A DNA stretch of 35,700 nucleotides from an uncultured Prevotella sp. (lineage in GTDB: Bacteria > Bacteroidota > Bacteroidia > Bacteroidales > Bacteroidaceae). The notes beneath the pieces were generated by a model. It did not search any database. It worked only from the letters and a program-made list of their open reading frames with translations, and was not told where the DNA came from. Positions 3,768 through 28,722 of this stretch are shown piece after piece; position 1 is the first letter of the stretch, and every line of letters begins with the position of its first letter. The position numbers were made by a program, and so were the translations under genes. The DNA lies in assembly GCA_900315545.1 (NCBI GenBank), contig OMZM01000017.1, positions 1 to 35,700 on the forward strand, given 5' to 3'.

Positions 3768-3935
3768 TAATCAAATTTTGCCCGTTTACTGTCGCGAGAA
3801 TGCCCGCGAAAGTCGTTCCGGACAAAAAAGGTGCGAAATATGCCCGAAATTCGCATGTTGTCGTAACTGTCTGACGGTCAGCGTGATACTGCGAAATATG
3901 GCAGAAATATGCTGGAAAAGCATGTGTTAAAATTG

Positions 3936-4062
3936 TCAAAGAGCATGTTTGAGATTGTCAAACACACTGTTTGAGGAGGTCAGACATAGTGTTTGAGGGT
4001 GTCGGGCACTGTGCCTGGCAGGGCAAAAAACGCGAAATAGGAGCCTCAAAGATACTCTTTGA
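3936..4062 (+). promoter_or_regulatory. Array of alternating half-sites at 11-bp phase, copy 1
   Basis: Six-base half-sites alternate in orientation and start exactly every 11 bp: TCAAAG 3936, GTTTGA 3947, TCAAAC 3958, GTTTGA 3969, TCAGAC 3980, GTTTGA 3991, TCGGGC 4002, GCCTGG 4013. After two weak slots the same register resumes with TCAAAG 4046 and CTTTGA 4057. Each facing pair is a 6-5-6 palindrome, the geometry known for NtrC-type enhancer-binding proteins. The TCGGGC/GCCTGG pair keeps its complementarity (one G-U) despite several base changes. Binding of an activator array is inference; an RNA made of small hairpins is the alternative. Confidence 0.75.
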
Positions 4063-4199
4063 CAATTTTAACACTTATAGTTGGTGTAGGTTTTAGCATA
4101 TTTTTGCAGTCGGAAAGGTTTGTTTGCATCTCTTTTGCACTTTTTCCCCTGTCAAAATTTTTCATCATTTTTCGCCCCGAAAGAAAATCCTGATGAGTT

Positions 4200-4215
4200 T
4201 GGCACGCTTTTTGCA
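4200..4215 (+). promoter_or_regulatory. Sigma-54-type -24/-12 promoter motif, copy 1
   Basis: TGGCACG-CTTT-TTGCA matches the sigma-54 (RpoN) consensus TGGCACG-N4-TTGCW exactly, with GG (4201-4202) and GC (4213-4214) at the required spacing. Transcription would start near 4226, about 100 nt before mrp. The half-site array is centred about 200 bp upstream, a normal distance for an enhancer. Confidence 0.65.
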
Positions 4216-19442: not shown

Positions 19443-19458
19443 AGCAAATAGCGTGCCA
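19443..19458 (-). promoter_or_regulatory. Sigma-54-type -24/-12 promoter motif, copy 2
   Basis: On the minus strand TGGCACG-CTAT-TTGCT, again an exact match to TGGCACG-N4-TTGCW, with the GG and GC 12 bp apart. It would start transcription near 19432 toward the EamA gene, about 180 nt upstream of its start codon. Confidence 0.65.
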
Positions 19459-19595
19459 AACTCATCAGGATTTTCTTCCGGGACGAAAAAGTATGAAAAA
19501 TTTTGACAGGGGAAAAGTCTCCAAATAGAATTTTTGTAGCCTCTAAAATTGCAAAAATCTGTTAATTTTCAGACCAAACACAACTGTTAAAATTG

Positions 19596-19722
19596 TCAAA
19601 GAGTACCTTTGACATACCTATTTCGTCTGTTTTGCCCTGCAAAACATAGCGTCCGACACCCCCAAACACTGTGTCTGACCTCTTCAAACAGTGTGTTTGA
19701 CAATCTCAAACATGCTCTTTGA
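19596..19722 (-). promoter_or_regulatory. Array of alternating half-sites at 11-bp phase, copy 2
   Basis: Minus-strand half-sites start at 19722 (TCAAAG), 19711 (GTTTGA), 19700 (TCAAAC), 19689 (GTTTGA), 19678 (TCAGAC), 19667 (GTTTGG), 19656 (TCGGAC), 19645 (GTTTTG), 19634 (CAAAAC). After one weak slot come 19612 (TCAAAG) and 19601 (CTTTGA). Eleven of twelve slots in an unbroken 11-bp register over 127 bp make this the most complete of the three arrays. Confidence 0.75.
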
Positions 19723-20005
19723 CAATTTTAACACTTGTGTTTCTTGCTTAAAAGGCGTATATTTTGCGTTAATAAACTGACTGTCAGGCGATTGCAGGTG
19801 CATACGAATTTTGGGCATATTTTACCCCTGCGATTTTTGAAACGACTTTCGCGGGCATTCTCGCGACAGTAAACGGGCTAAAATTGATTATATGTTTTAT
19901 AGTGCTTTTCTGCCTGCCGACATCGCAATGACACCAGATATTCCTGTCGATTTTCAGTCGTTGGCAGTCGTAAAAATGATTTTTTTGAAAAAATATCGCA
20001 AAATA

Positions 20006-25988: not shown

Positions 25989-28226
25989 ATGAAGAAGTTT
26001 TTATACGCAGTTTACATATTAATAGTAGTAAGTCTTGCCGTAGCAACAATAGTTGAAAACAGTTTCGGAACGGAATTTGCAGGCAGGCATATCTACGGAG
26101 CATGGTGGTTTACGTCATTATGGACGGCACTGGTCGTTCTGGGATGCGCCTGGATTGTGCATAGGAAGATGCGCCGCTGGTCGCTGCTGTTGCTGCACGG
26201 CTCATTCGTCATTATACTTGTCGGTGCCGCAATAACCCATTTCACGGCAAAGCGCGGTATGATACACTTACGAACAGGCGAACAGACATCTTCATACATC
26301 ATATCTGACGGAAACAAAGGCATGGACACGGCAGAACTGCCATACACGTTGAGGCTCGATACTTTTGCTGTCTCATATCATGAAGGCACAGATGCGGCTG
26401 CCGACTTTGTTTCTTTCCTGACTGTCAGCGACGGCAATGGTGTGCAGAAAGCAAGAGTTTCGATGAACAACATCTTTTCATATAAGGGAATAAGACTCTA
26501 TCAGAACTCCTATGACGATGATGGTGGGGGAACGGTGCTGACAGTTAAGAGCGACCCCGCTGGTATTGCAGTAACATACTGTGGATATGCCTTGCTGTTC
26601 TTTTCACTGCTTTTCATGCTTGTCGACCCTAAGGGAGCATTCCGCCGACTTTTGCGCGACGATCGGCTGAACAAAGGTTTTCTGGTGTTTGCAGCATTGG
26701 TATGTTGCTCGCTTTTATTCAGTACGGCTTCTAATGCGGCACCAACCCTGCCGAAAGAACAGGCAGAGCGTTTTGGCAGACTCAACATATTATACAATAA
26801 CCGTATATGTCCGTTACAGACATTTGCCATCGATTTTACAAAGAAGATATACGGAAAGGACACCTACAACGGCTTGACGGCTGAACAGGTAGTCGCTGGT
26901 CTTGTGTTCTATGGCAACGAATGGAATGACGAGCCGTTTATTCGTCTAAAGAAAAAGGAGTTGCGCAATGCGCTAAACCTGCCAAAATATGTATCGATGA
27001 ATCGCCTTTTCGAGGGTGGGAGATATCTGCTGGGACCTTATTACGACGAATATCTTCGCGGCAACGACGACAAGCTGCACAAGCAGGTAGCCGACATCGA
27101 CGAGAAACTGCAACTTGTAATGGATTTGCGCAGAGGAATACTGCTGAAAGTATTCCCATACAACAACGGCAAGACAGTTGTATGGTATTCCCCGACAGAG
27201 CAGCATCTGCCGCAGGACATGGATTCTGTACAGGCAAAATACATCAATACATCGTTCAATATCCTTTATCAGAATGTGCTTTCAGAACGCTACGACAACG
27301 TTGACAATATGCTGCTGAAGATGCGCAAATACCAGCAGGTAAACGGAGGCGCATCGCTGCCCACACCCATACAGCGCAAAGCCGAGTTTGCATACAACGC
27401 AATATCATTTGCCAAGATATTGTTCATGGCATGTCTTGCTGTGGGAATGTTGTCGCTGATAGTCGTCATGGTGCGCATGACAGATAACCGACAGGAACGT
27501 AAAGGCATGGGCAAGCGTGCCTTGCTGACCATGTATGCGATAATGCTGCTGTGCTTTGGCGTGCTCACATGGTGTCTCGCATTGCGATGGATAATAGGTG
27601 GCACGGTGCCAATGTCGAACGGTTACGAAACGATGCTGTTGCTCGCATGGATAATAATGCTTGTATCCATTGCGGTAGGCAGGCGTTTCCCCATAATGCT
27701 GACGTTTGGTTTCCTCTTGTCGGGATTCTTCCTCCTCGTGGCATACATAAGCAATATGGACCCGAAGATAACACATATCATGCCCGTCCTGCAGTCGCCC
27801 TTGCTGAGTATACACGTAGGAGTCATAATGATGTCATACGCCCTGCTTGCACTTACGTTCTTGTGCAGTCTTACGGCGACACTGCTATATATAGCTAAGC
27901 GTGATAGGAGCCGCGAGCAAGTCATGTCGCTGGCATTGCTGAGCAGATTGCTTTTGTTTCCGTCAATCACTGCACTCGGCTTGGGAATATTCATAGGAGC
28001 GATATGGGCAAACATAAGTTGGGGCGACTATTGGAGCTGGGACCCAAAAGAAACGTGGGCGCTGATAACCATGCTCGTATATGCCGTGCCGCTGCATACG
28101 GCAACCGTGCCAAGCATCAGCAAGCCAATGGCATATCATTTCTATATGATGTTTGCATTCCTGACCCTGCTCATGACATATTTCGGAGTGAACTATCTTC
28201 TCGGGGGAATGCACTCCTATGCATAG
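25989..28226 (+). CDS. Fused ResB/CcsA cytochrome c biogenesis protein (CcsBA type)
   Basis: 745 residues in the inner membrane; exports heme and attaches it to CxxCH apocytochromes (system II). The ResB-like half (about 1-230) has four hydrophobic segments and candidate heme-ligand histidines H70 and H84. A periplasmic stretch (about 250-465) links to the CcsA half with about eight segments. The tryptophan-rich WWD heme motif is WGDYWSWDPKETW (W678-W690), and further histidines lie in IHVG and PLHT. The fusion order is that known from Bacteroides and epsilon-proteobacteria. It is last in the cluster, directly after the di-heme lipoprotein, which is the obvious client. Confidence 0.93.
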   Translation: MKKFLYAVYILIVVSLAVATIVENSFGTEFAGRHIYGAWWFTSLWTALVVLGCAWIVHRKMRRWSLLLLHGSFVIILVGAAITHFTAKRGMIHLRTGEQTSSYIISDGNKGMDTAELPYTLRLDTFAVSYHEGTDAAADFVSFLTVSDGNGVQKARVSMNNIFSYKGIRLYQNSYDDDGGGTVLTVKSDPAGIAVTYCGYALLFFSLLFMLVDPKGAFRRLLRDDRLNKGFLVFAALVCCSLLFSTASNAAPTLPKEQAERFGRLNILYNNRICPLQTFAIDFTKKIYGKDTYNGLTAEQVVAGLVFYGNEWNDEPFIRLKKKELRNALNLPKYVSMNRLFEGGRYLLGPYYDEYLRGNDDKLHKQVADIDEKLQLVMDLRRGILLKVFPYNNGKTVVWYSPTEQHLPQDMDSVQAKYINTSFNILYQNVLSERYDNVDNMLLKMRKYQQVNGGASLPTPIQRKAEFAYNAISFAKILFMACLAVGMLSLIVVMVRMTDNRQERKGMGKRALLTMYAIMLLCFGVLTWCLALRWIIGGTVPMSNGYETMLLLAWIIMLVSIAVGRRFPIMLTFGFLLSGFFLLVAYISNMDPKITHIMPVLQSPLLSIHVGVIMMSYALLALTFLCSLTATLLYIAKRDRSREQVMSLALLSRLLLFPSITALGLGIFIGAIWANISWGDYWSWDPKETWALITMLVYAVPLHTATVPSISKPMAYHFYMMFAFLTLLMTYFGVNYLLGGMHSYA

Positions 28227-28443
28227 AAACAACTCCGATTTGGAAATAAAGAGCCCCTATCTGCACAAAAAACACTAATCAATTTTCGCCCGTTAACCCT
28301 CGCGAGAATGCCCTCGAAAGCCGTTTCTGAAATCACATGGGCAAAAAACGCCCGTATTTCGTGTGCATCTGCAATCGTCTGACAGTCAAGATGATAGCGC
28401 GGAATACACTACTTTTACGCACGAAATCTATATGTTAAAATTG

Positions 28444-28569
28444 TCAAAGAGTATGTTTGAGATTGTCAAACACACTGTTTGAGGATGCCAAACATAGTGT
28501 TTGGGACTCTCAGAGACAATGTTTTGCAAGACAAAATACGCAAATAGCCGCCTCAAACATACTCTTTGA
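28444..28569 (+). promoter_or_regulatory. Array of alternating half-sites at 11-bp phase, copy 3
   Basis: Half-sites start at 28444 (TCAAAG), 28455 (GTTTGA), 28466 (TCAAAC), 28477 (GTTTGA), 28488 (CCAAAC), 28499 (GTTTGG), 28510 (TCAGAG), 28521 (GTTTTG), 28532 (CAAAAT). After a slot with no match the pair TCAAAC 28553 / CTTTGA 28564 follows, one base out of register. CCAAAC/GTTTGG shows a paired change at both outer bases compared with copy 1, which keeps the palindrome. Confidence 0.72.
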
Positions 28570-28706
28570 CATTTTTAACAATTATAATTGGTCTGAAAAT
28601 TAACATAGTTTCACGCTTCCAGCGCCTGTTCCGCATCTATTTTGCAACTTTTTCCCTGTCAAAATTTTTCATCATTTTCCGCCCTCAAACAAAATTCCGT
28701 TCACTT

Positions 28707-28722
28707 TGGCACACTTTTTGTA
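28707..28722 (+). promoter_or_regulatory. Degenerate sigma-54-type motif, copy 3
   Basis: TGGCACA-CTTT-TTGTA keeps the GG of the -24 element and the spacing, but the invariant -12 GC has become GT. It is probably weak or inactive. Confidence 0.45.

Follow-up and report, generated by a model that had tools for sequence, protein, structure and literature searches.

Several classes of dispersed sequences in bacterial genomes can be compared with the element described here. REP/BIME, ERIC and Correia repeats occur in many intergenic copies per genome and contain palindromic parts, some of which bind gyrase or IHF. They are shorter, or are mobile with inverted ends, and to our knowledge neither an even spacing of about 11 kb nor a fixed 22-bp lattice is known for them. 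A second class comprises the dispersed sites for a DNA-organising protein, such as matS for MatP, parS for ParB and SBS for Noc, which are single sites of about 14–16 bp that are largely confined to a domain. Supercoil domains of about 10 kb in bacteria are commonly regarded as lacking boundaries fixed by sequence, and the study on plectoneme pinning by curved DNA reportedly involves no repeat lattice. For enterobacteria, supercoil domains of about 10 kb are reported in PMC3420936, which also treats matS, and the pinning of plectonemes by curved DNA is the subject of PMC6301789. The BrickBuilt MITE of Porphyromonas gingivalis is described in PMC4596501 as having 19 copies, each with 1 to 22.8 units of 23 nt; its terminal inverted repeats are IS5-like, and duplications occur in some cases.

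The window, i.e. the whole stretch of DNA that was analysed, comprises 35,700 nucleotides and is the entire contig C13 of an uncultured Prevotella sp. assembly of 2,288,422 bp in 56 contigs, which is 92% complete (G000 in the following). The repeat family found in it, F1, resembles REP/BIME, ERIC and Correia in its many intergenic copies and palindromic parts. With matS, parS and SBS it shares the dispersed sites, the protein being a predicted one in our case; it differs from them in having arrays of about 100–450 bp, which occur on each large contig sampled and whose half-sites differ between species. According to PMC4596501, BrickBuilt too is a Bacteroidales repeat located between genes, and its units form an internal array between a non-repeated leader and tail. 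F1 is unlike it in its copy number of about 164, in an array length fixed within 1 bp (45 copies), in the lack of duplications and in its regular spacing. A search of the open-licence literature found no description of such arrays.

Anatomy and conservation of the element

The three copies claimed by a first-pass annotation were all found. As cut here, they extend over 3768–4214 (plus strand, 447 bp, type A of family F1), 19444–19890 (minus strand, 447 bp) and 28276–28721 (plus strand, 446 bp), the core arrays of the second and third lying at about 19586–19732 and 28434–28579. Copy 3 sits in the gap between two convergent called genes. As a small correction to the ends, conservation fades across several bases on both sides without a single-base stop.

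In the first copy, the left-end block TAATCAAATTT (3768–3778, plus strand), whose TAATCA is invariant in 45/45 full copies of the genome, is followed by the CTGACnGTCAG landmark dyad (3871–3881) and by the core array (3926–4072), a 22-bp lattice of GTCAAA- and TTTGAC-like half-sites between the caps GTTAAAATT and AATTTTAAC. The block TGTCAAAA (4150–4157, plus strand), again invariant in 45 copies, and the right end TTTGGCACGCTTTTTGC (4198–4214, plus strand), which resembles a sigma-54 -24/-12 promoter, complete the element. More generally, type A elements start with AAAAnnncTAATCAATTTT, a GC-rich block, CTGACnGTCAG and the core array, and continue with TGTCAAAATTTTTCAT and the right end TTTGGCACnnTTTTTG[C/T]. 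The palindrome, reported for all three window copies, is imperfect in the third, since this copy reads CTGACAGTCAA.

The fixed distances between landmarks that had been proposed hold in the three window copies and in the 45 full copies of the genome. With a loosened site pattern, TAATCA lies 103 bp (38 copies) or 104 bp (7 copies) from the CTGACnGTCAG site, and the latter lies 55 bp from GTTAAAA in all 45. The distance from GTTAAAA to TTTGGCAC is 272 bp in 34 copies, 271 in 7 and 273 in 4, and that from TGTCAAAA to TTTGGCAC is 48 bp in 40 and 49 in 5. From cap to cap the array measures 131 bp (38 copies) or 130 bp (7 copies), and the number of internal repeats does not vary. GTCAAA-like half-sites begin at element positions 168, 190, 212, 256 and 278 and TTTGAC-like ones at 181, 203, 225, 247 and 291; a further, weak half-site of the lattice was read from the consensus at 234, and at 269 no clear one is visible. 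Alternation of the dyad centres every 11 bp was seen in both window copies that were tested.

The AA/TT signal peaks at a period of 10.8–10.9 bp in 45/45 copies, with a median power at 10.9 bp of 3.07 in the elements versus 0.42 in genome windows. It exceeds the 99th percentile of the genome in all 45 copies and that of mostly non-coding windows in 14 of them. At 10.9 bp the left, core and right parts are in phase within 0.7 bp; taken by itself, the left part has its peak at 10.0 bp, and its power is low.

Mean pairwise identity of the 45 full copies is 77.5%, i.e. an average difference of about 22%, with identities between nearest neighbours of 75 to 91%, and 81% of the tree length obtained with FastTree falls on terminal branches. 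Parsimony counts 1,600 terminal and 656 internal substitutions, 2,256 altogether, versus 20 runs of insertions or deletions (113 substitutions per indel), which agrees with the earlier suggestion that the spacing itself is under selection. Columns without any terminal change number 142 of 447 versus 12.5 expected, a signal that may be exaggerated by kinship among the copies and by the way they were aligned, though scarcely to this extent; TAATCA, TGTCAAAA and TTTGGCAC show zero terminal changes. Because length is nearly constant and these blocks are invariant despite 22% divergence, the copies look maintained, and the retention of motifs and distances in old copies argues for selection at each site. 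The proposal of a multi-site module is supported as well.

Family size and placement in the genome

The element had been said to be present three times, which is correct for the window and grossly understates a family that extends over the genome. The whole-genome search proposed by the same annotation yielded many more copies with conserved internal spacing. Allowing for up to 3 mismatches, a search with the inner-arm pattern gave 138 forward and 135 reverse matches genome-wide (reversed control 0 and 0), and a 448-bp query gave 164 first-look candidates, 40 of which were scored, each with a match that spans at least 407 of 448 bases. In sampled stretches totalling 822,203 bp (36% of the genome), 59 F1 elements were identified by profile; assuming uniformity, this extrapolates to about 164 for the 2.29-Mb genome. 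These 59 comprise 45 full elements of type A, 7 of type B, in which the right end is absent, 3 of type C, which have a different core, and 4 that are partial or cut by a contig end. A query specific for the type C core detects 9 such elements in the whole genome and further sites too, several of them inside large F1 gaps.

A screen of 398 other genomes from the genus yielded a single partial copy, located in G005. This half element (L051:1497–1670, equal to query positions 281–445) adjoins what we take to be an hcp-like gene, followed presumably by an IS3-like transposase region. No F1 copy turned up in a family-level draw of 399 genomes, which overlaps the genus and includes the genome itself, and there was no F1 match in collections of plasmids, phages and viral contigs, the last searched by exact pattern.

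According to our own gene calls, which rest on a codon model and are uncurated, the 59 elements, which are intergenic, show 2 gene overlaps. The 55 elements with both neighbours lie between divergent (20), tandem (20) or convergent (15) genes, versus 69, 214 and 53 among all 336 gaps of at least 60 bp, so that operon interiors are seemingly avoided. Of the genes that come next on the right side, 27 of 55 are directed away from the element's right end and 28 toward it, which speaks against the earlier idea of a regulator of adjacent genes; a promoter of neighbouring genes was rejected for the same lack of orientation bias. A role of replication polarity was also discarded (correlation with GC skew r -0.07, p 0.62), and the correlation with gene strand bias is weak and not significant (r -0.24, p 0.07).

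Compared with the same number of sites drawn from intergenic gaps, F1 alone shows 1/52 intervals below 6.5 kb versus 19.5 expected, the lowest of 5,000 draws being 9. This sole short interval in the sample is a 461-bp pair, one member of which is a partial copy.

A lag scan, which records self-similarity at a given lag and is blind to the sequence, was run for lags 13 to 39 in G000. In the sampled 822 kb, lag 22 accounts for 63 regions, and no other lag has more than 2. Of the 63, 55 coincide with F1, 7 are bare 22-bp arrays of the TTACAG-N5-CTGTAA type, referred to as F2, and one is an AT-rich 22-bp tandem (C17:83368–83526) about 4 kb from an F1 element; being unlike F1 or F2 in sequence, this tandem was left out of the spacing set as unrelated. 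A strict palindrome filter over the whole region proved too harsh, since it keeps 9 lag-22 regions in G000 versus 63 in the plain scan; it gave 1 hit at lag 21 and 1 at lags outside 21–23, all sets taken together.

Each of the 7 F2 arrays in the sample is separated from the nearest F1 element by 6.7 to 17.1 kb (p 0.00015 by gap count, 0.005 by gap length). For F1 and F2 together, 1/59 intervals in the sample is below 6.5 kb versus 24.3 expected (lowest of 5,000 draws 13), the median interval is 11.4 kb and the coefficient of variation (CV) is 0.35 without the 461-bp pair, versus a null mean of 0.88. On contigs outside the sample, where intervals are lengthened because the lists of places are incomplete, 2/53 are below 6.5 kb versus 22 expected from an exponential distribution and 3/53 exceed 20 kb versus 10 expected, with a median of 10.8 kb. 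Of the two short intervals, the one on C19 measures 3.8 kb and the one on C35, from F2 to F1, 6.1 kb. This count leaves out contigs with one known element as well as C11, which has one interval of about 18 kb, and C45, where two sites about 3.8 kb from each other may form a pair, the second being a candidate element; with C11 and C45 added, 3/55 intervals are below 6.5 kb. Deletion between direct repeats was dismissed as the cause of the spacing, since divergent neighbours are likewise at least 7.5 kb apart; for convergent neighbours the minimum distance is that of the 461-bp pair. Placement over the genome is non-random and quasi-regular, as in a family of chromosome-organising sites.

Arrays in related genomes

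By lag scan, 22-bp arrays with other half-sites were detected in four genomes of the same genus (G016, G010, G024 and G274), and 400 kb of sequence from five genomes that belong to other families of the same order gave no lag-21 or lag-22 region. In 600 kb of G016, the scan over lags 15 to 35 returned 45 regions at lag 22 and no more than 4 at any other. Starting from 44 seeds, a search by similarity gave 69 array loci in G016, a count which includes at least one likely false seed (391,941) and perhaps a second (104,078), and 1/69 lies inside called genes. Short intervals are again scarce: 10/68 are below 5 kb versus 29.6 expected (lowest draw 18) and 23/68 below 6.5 kb versus 36.5 expected (lowest draw 25). 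G016 is less regular than G000 (CV 0.78, p 0.038), and its result replicates the under-dispersion once, with a different sequence. Its largest gap measures 52 kb and contains a Mu-like prophage at C1, about 118–149 kb, with matches to a transposase, a transposition protein and a portal protein.

Arrays are sparse in G010 (4 in 200 kb, one of them not linked to the others), G024 (4 in 200 kb) and G274 (2 in 80 kb), and these numbers are too small for an assessment of spacing; in 109 kb of G005 the scan gave a single lag-22 region and three lag-21 regions. Because these four genomes are array-poor, the lattice of about 11 kb is not general, and non-random spacing is demonstrated in two genomes only.

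Named records, mainly of Prevotella or Prevotellaceae, supplied 80 loci of about 8 kb; 11 have a lag-22 region and 69 are without an array at the threshold used. Seven of these 11 show dyads alternating every 11 bp, three show a dyad only and L104 shows neither; alternating dyads are present in 5/5 arrays of G016, 2/2 of G010, 1/2 of G024 and 0/1 of G274. When 80–120 kb of each of four relatives were searched for repeats by copy, no repeat passed the thresholds of that method, whereas the lag scan did find arrays. Lags 14, 21 and 28 in other Prevotella loci were considered as dyad arrays and rejected, as they are mostly heptamer microsatellites, which were seen in L077, L087, L100, L111, L132 and others. 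The window protein at 25989–28226, presumably of the cytochrome-biogenesis type, has matches on contigs of Prevotella and relatives, the nearest among the 80 loci kept being a Prevotella sp. MAG with 66% identity.

Possible functions of the lattice

Of the first reading of this element, the selected spacing, the multi-site character and the exclusion of a recent insertion stand, and the RNA and the regulator of adjacent genes do not; its local view missed that the element belongs to an evenly spaced, genome-wide family and exemplifies a type of array that also occurs in other genomes of the genus. The lattice, the arrays and their phasing, the conserved spacing, the lack of RNA covariation or of an open reading frame and the arrays of the same period in the genus are observed. 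Our leading, though still tentative, suggestion is that the elements are nucleoprotein anchor sites of a chromosome-wide lattice whose protein changes its specificity between species. We infer a sequence-specific protein that would bind the 22-bp array and, as inverted half-sites recur about every helical turn, would lie along one face of the DNA. The array and the phased A-tracts may bend or wrap the element in the cell, over about 450 bp, into a fixed shape. The elements would then delimit segments of the chromosome about 11 kb long, i.e. loop or supercoil domains, with a binding specificity that differs from species to species. It has to be noted, however, that the making of domains alone requires no minimum distance between sites.

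With slightly more reserve, one may extend this to Prevotella chromosomes as such, which might carry a quasi-regular intergenic lattice read by a dedicated protein family, its specificity replaced between species and array geometry and spacing kept. It is conceivable to the same degree that such a lattice corresponds, in bacteria, to the rapidly evolving DNA of centromeres or boundaries. Fast evolution is known from centromere and recombination-site proteins, and specificity turnover, if true, would offer a tractable bacterial case of it. If the arrays set domains, the sequence would reveal the domain ends in this genus, and each could be tested in turn. The layout hints at an undescribed way to organise a bacterial chromosome. 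As with the curved DNA treated in PMC6301789, the position of supercoils is predicted to be encoded in the sequence.

The right end suggests another function, namely that the elements are dispersed sigma-54 promoter cassettes in which the array serves as the enhancer and the right end as a stress-induced promoter. We consider this unlikely for the family as a whole, although the promoter at the right end, judged by its sequence, may well work. The right end fits the -24/-12 form: TTTGGCAC and GG are present in 45/45 copies and GC at -12 in 29/45, the remaining 16/45 having GT, which counts against it. The array ends about 130 bp before the putative promoter, a usual enhancer distance. The genome contains rpoN, and the enhancer-binding family PF00158 gave one strong and three weak matches (24–38 bits). 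In addition, TTGGCAC-N5-TTGC was searched for in 30 genomes, and in 8 of the 30 loci fetched it lies 0–100 bp before a chaperone or Clp-type frame, the strict site being at position 1501 in each. The frames are HtpG in three (L191, L195, L204), a Clp-type AAA protein in two (L190, L203), GrpE in two (L199, L202) and DnaK in one (L207), where the GrpE and Clp matches are below the NCBIfam cut-offs and the Clp frames are cut by the locus end; in most other fetched loci the site is apparently gene-internal or without a clear frame. These sites are consistent with a sigma-54 chaperone regulon, and PMC12316311 reports that sigma-54 controls chaperones in Bacteroidota. The only strict site outside an element in the sampled 822 kb (G000 C29:24316, L042:4316) is followed by a thioredoxin gene; its 250 bp upstream, however, contain no GTCAAA array.

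Promoter cassettes would imply that at least some 100 outward transcripts start together with the chaperone genes, yet the downstream gene faces the wrong way in 28/55 cases. Moreover, the right end is absent in 7/59 elements and in the F2 arrays, which nevertheless belong to the same lattice. Because type B and F2 are promoterless within the lattice and orientation gives no target, gene control fails to explain the layout. F1 is thus like sigma-54 promoters with upstream enhancers in its -24/-12 right end and its several upstream dyads, and unlike them in having no consistent target gene and a partly promoterless lattice. As a separate observation, TTGGCACTATCTTTGC occurs upstream of a gene in L189, L214 (G010) and L206, the gene in L206 being iPGM phosphoglycerate mutase, and the site in G010 is situated within three tandem units of 66 bp.

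The even spacing could also have arisen from a non-autonomous mobile family with target immunity in the style of Mu or Tn7, which spaced itself during its spread and later decayed. The scarcity of close pairs resembles immunity, the 22-bp transposase sites of Mu and Tn7 fit the period, and copy number is high in one species, with a match, a partial one, in only 1/398 other genomes of the genus. We nevertheless regard such an origin as quite unlikely, and mobile elements were abandoned as candidates for want of duplications and recent copies among the 45 aligned. Target-site duplications (lengths 3–6, 8 and 9) are not above shuffled pairing, and nearest-neighbour identities of at most 91% reveal no recent pairs, in line with the earlier statement that the element is not a recent insertion. 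Terminal substitutions avoid the motifs, as decay after insertion would not; F1 and F2 have a common spacing without common ends, and in other species the sequences that show this period are unrelated. Terminal inverted repeats were not seen by eye, the left TAATCAATTTT and the right TTTGGCACnnTTTTTG not being inverted copies. A search for Mu-type transposases gave no match and is uninformative, as its control found none anywhere; the genome has one rve match, on C35.

Sites by which a defence or repair machine tells the host chromosome from invaders would account for the turnover of specificity, with half-sites that differ among genomes, and for the rarity of long gaps, as in the 3/53 intervals above 20 kb versus 10 expected; the Mu-like prophage in the largest G016 gap speaks for it as well. 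Such self-marking, however, predicts no minimum distance, and we consider it very unlikely.

A structured RNA or riboswitch-like leader, offered by the first-pass annotation, is extremely improbable and was dropped after the arm covariation test: RNA folding does beat shuffles (z -4.4 and -6.7), but this is accounted for by the inverted DNA sites, whose arms would pair as RNA, whereas the three most variable arm pairs vary independently (28, 22 and 11 of 45 copies paired, 17, 23 and 34 broken, without compensatory changes), arm pairs variable on both sides share at most 0.009 bits of mutual information, not above shuffles, and the flanking genes have both orientations. Coding was excluded because no frame is open throughout, the longest stop-free run being 21–87 codons by copy and frame. 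Rfam at gathering score gave nothing in the whole window except one tRNA, and no match at the elements of four loci. Separately, a cobalamin riboswitch was recorded at L002:146–333 (minus strand) with 105 bits.
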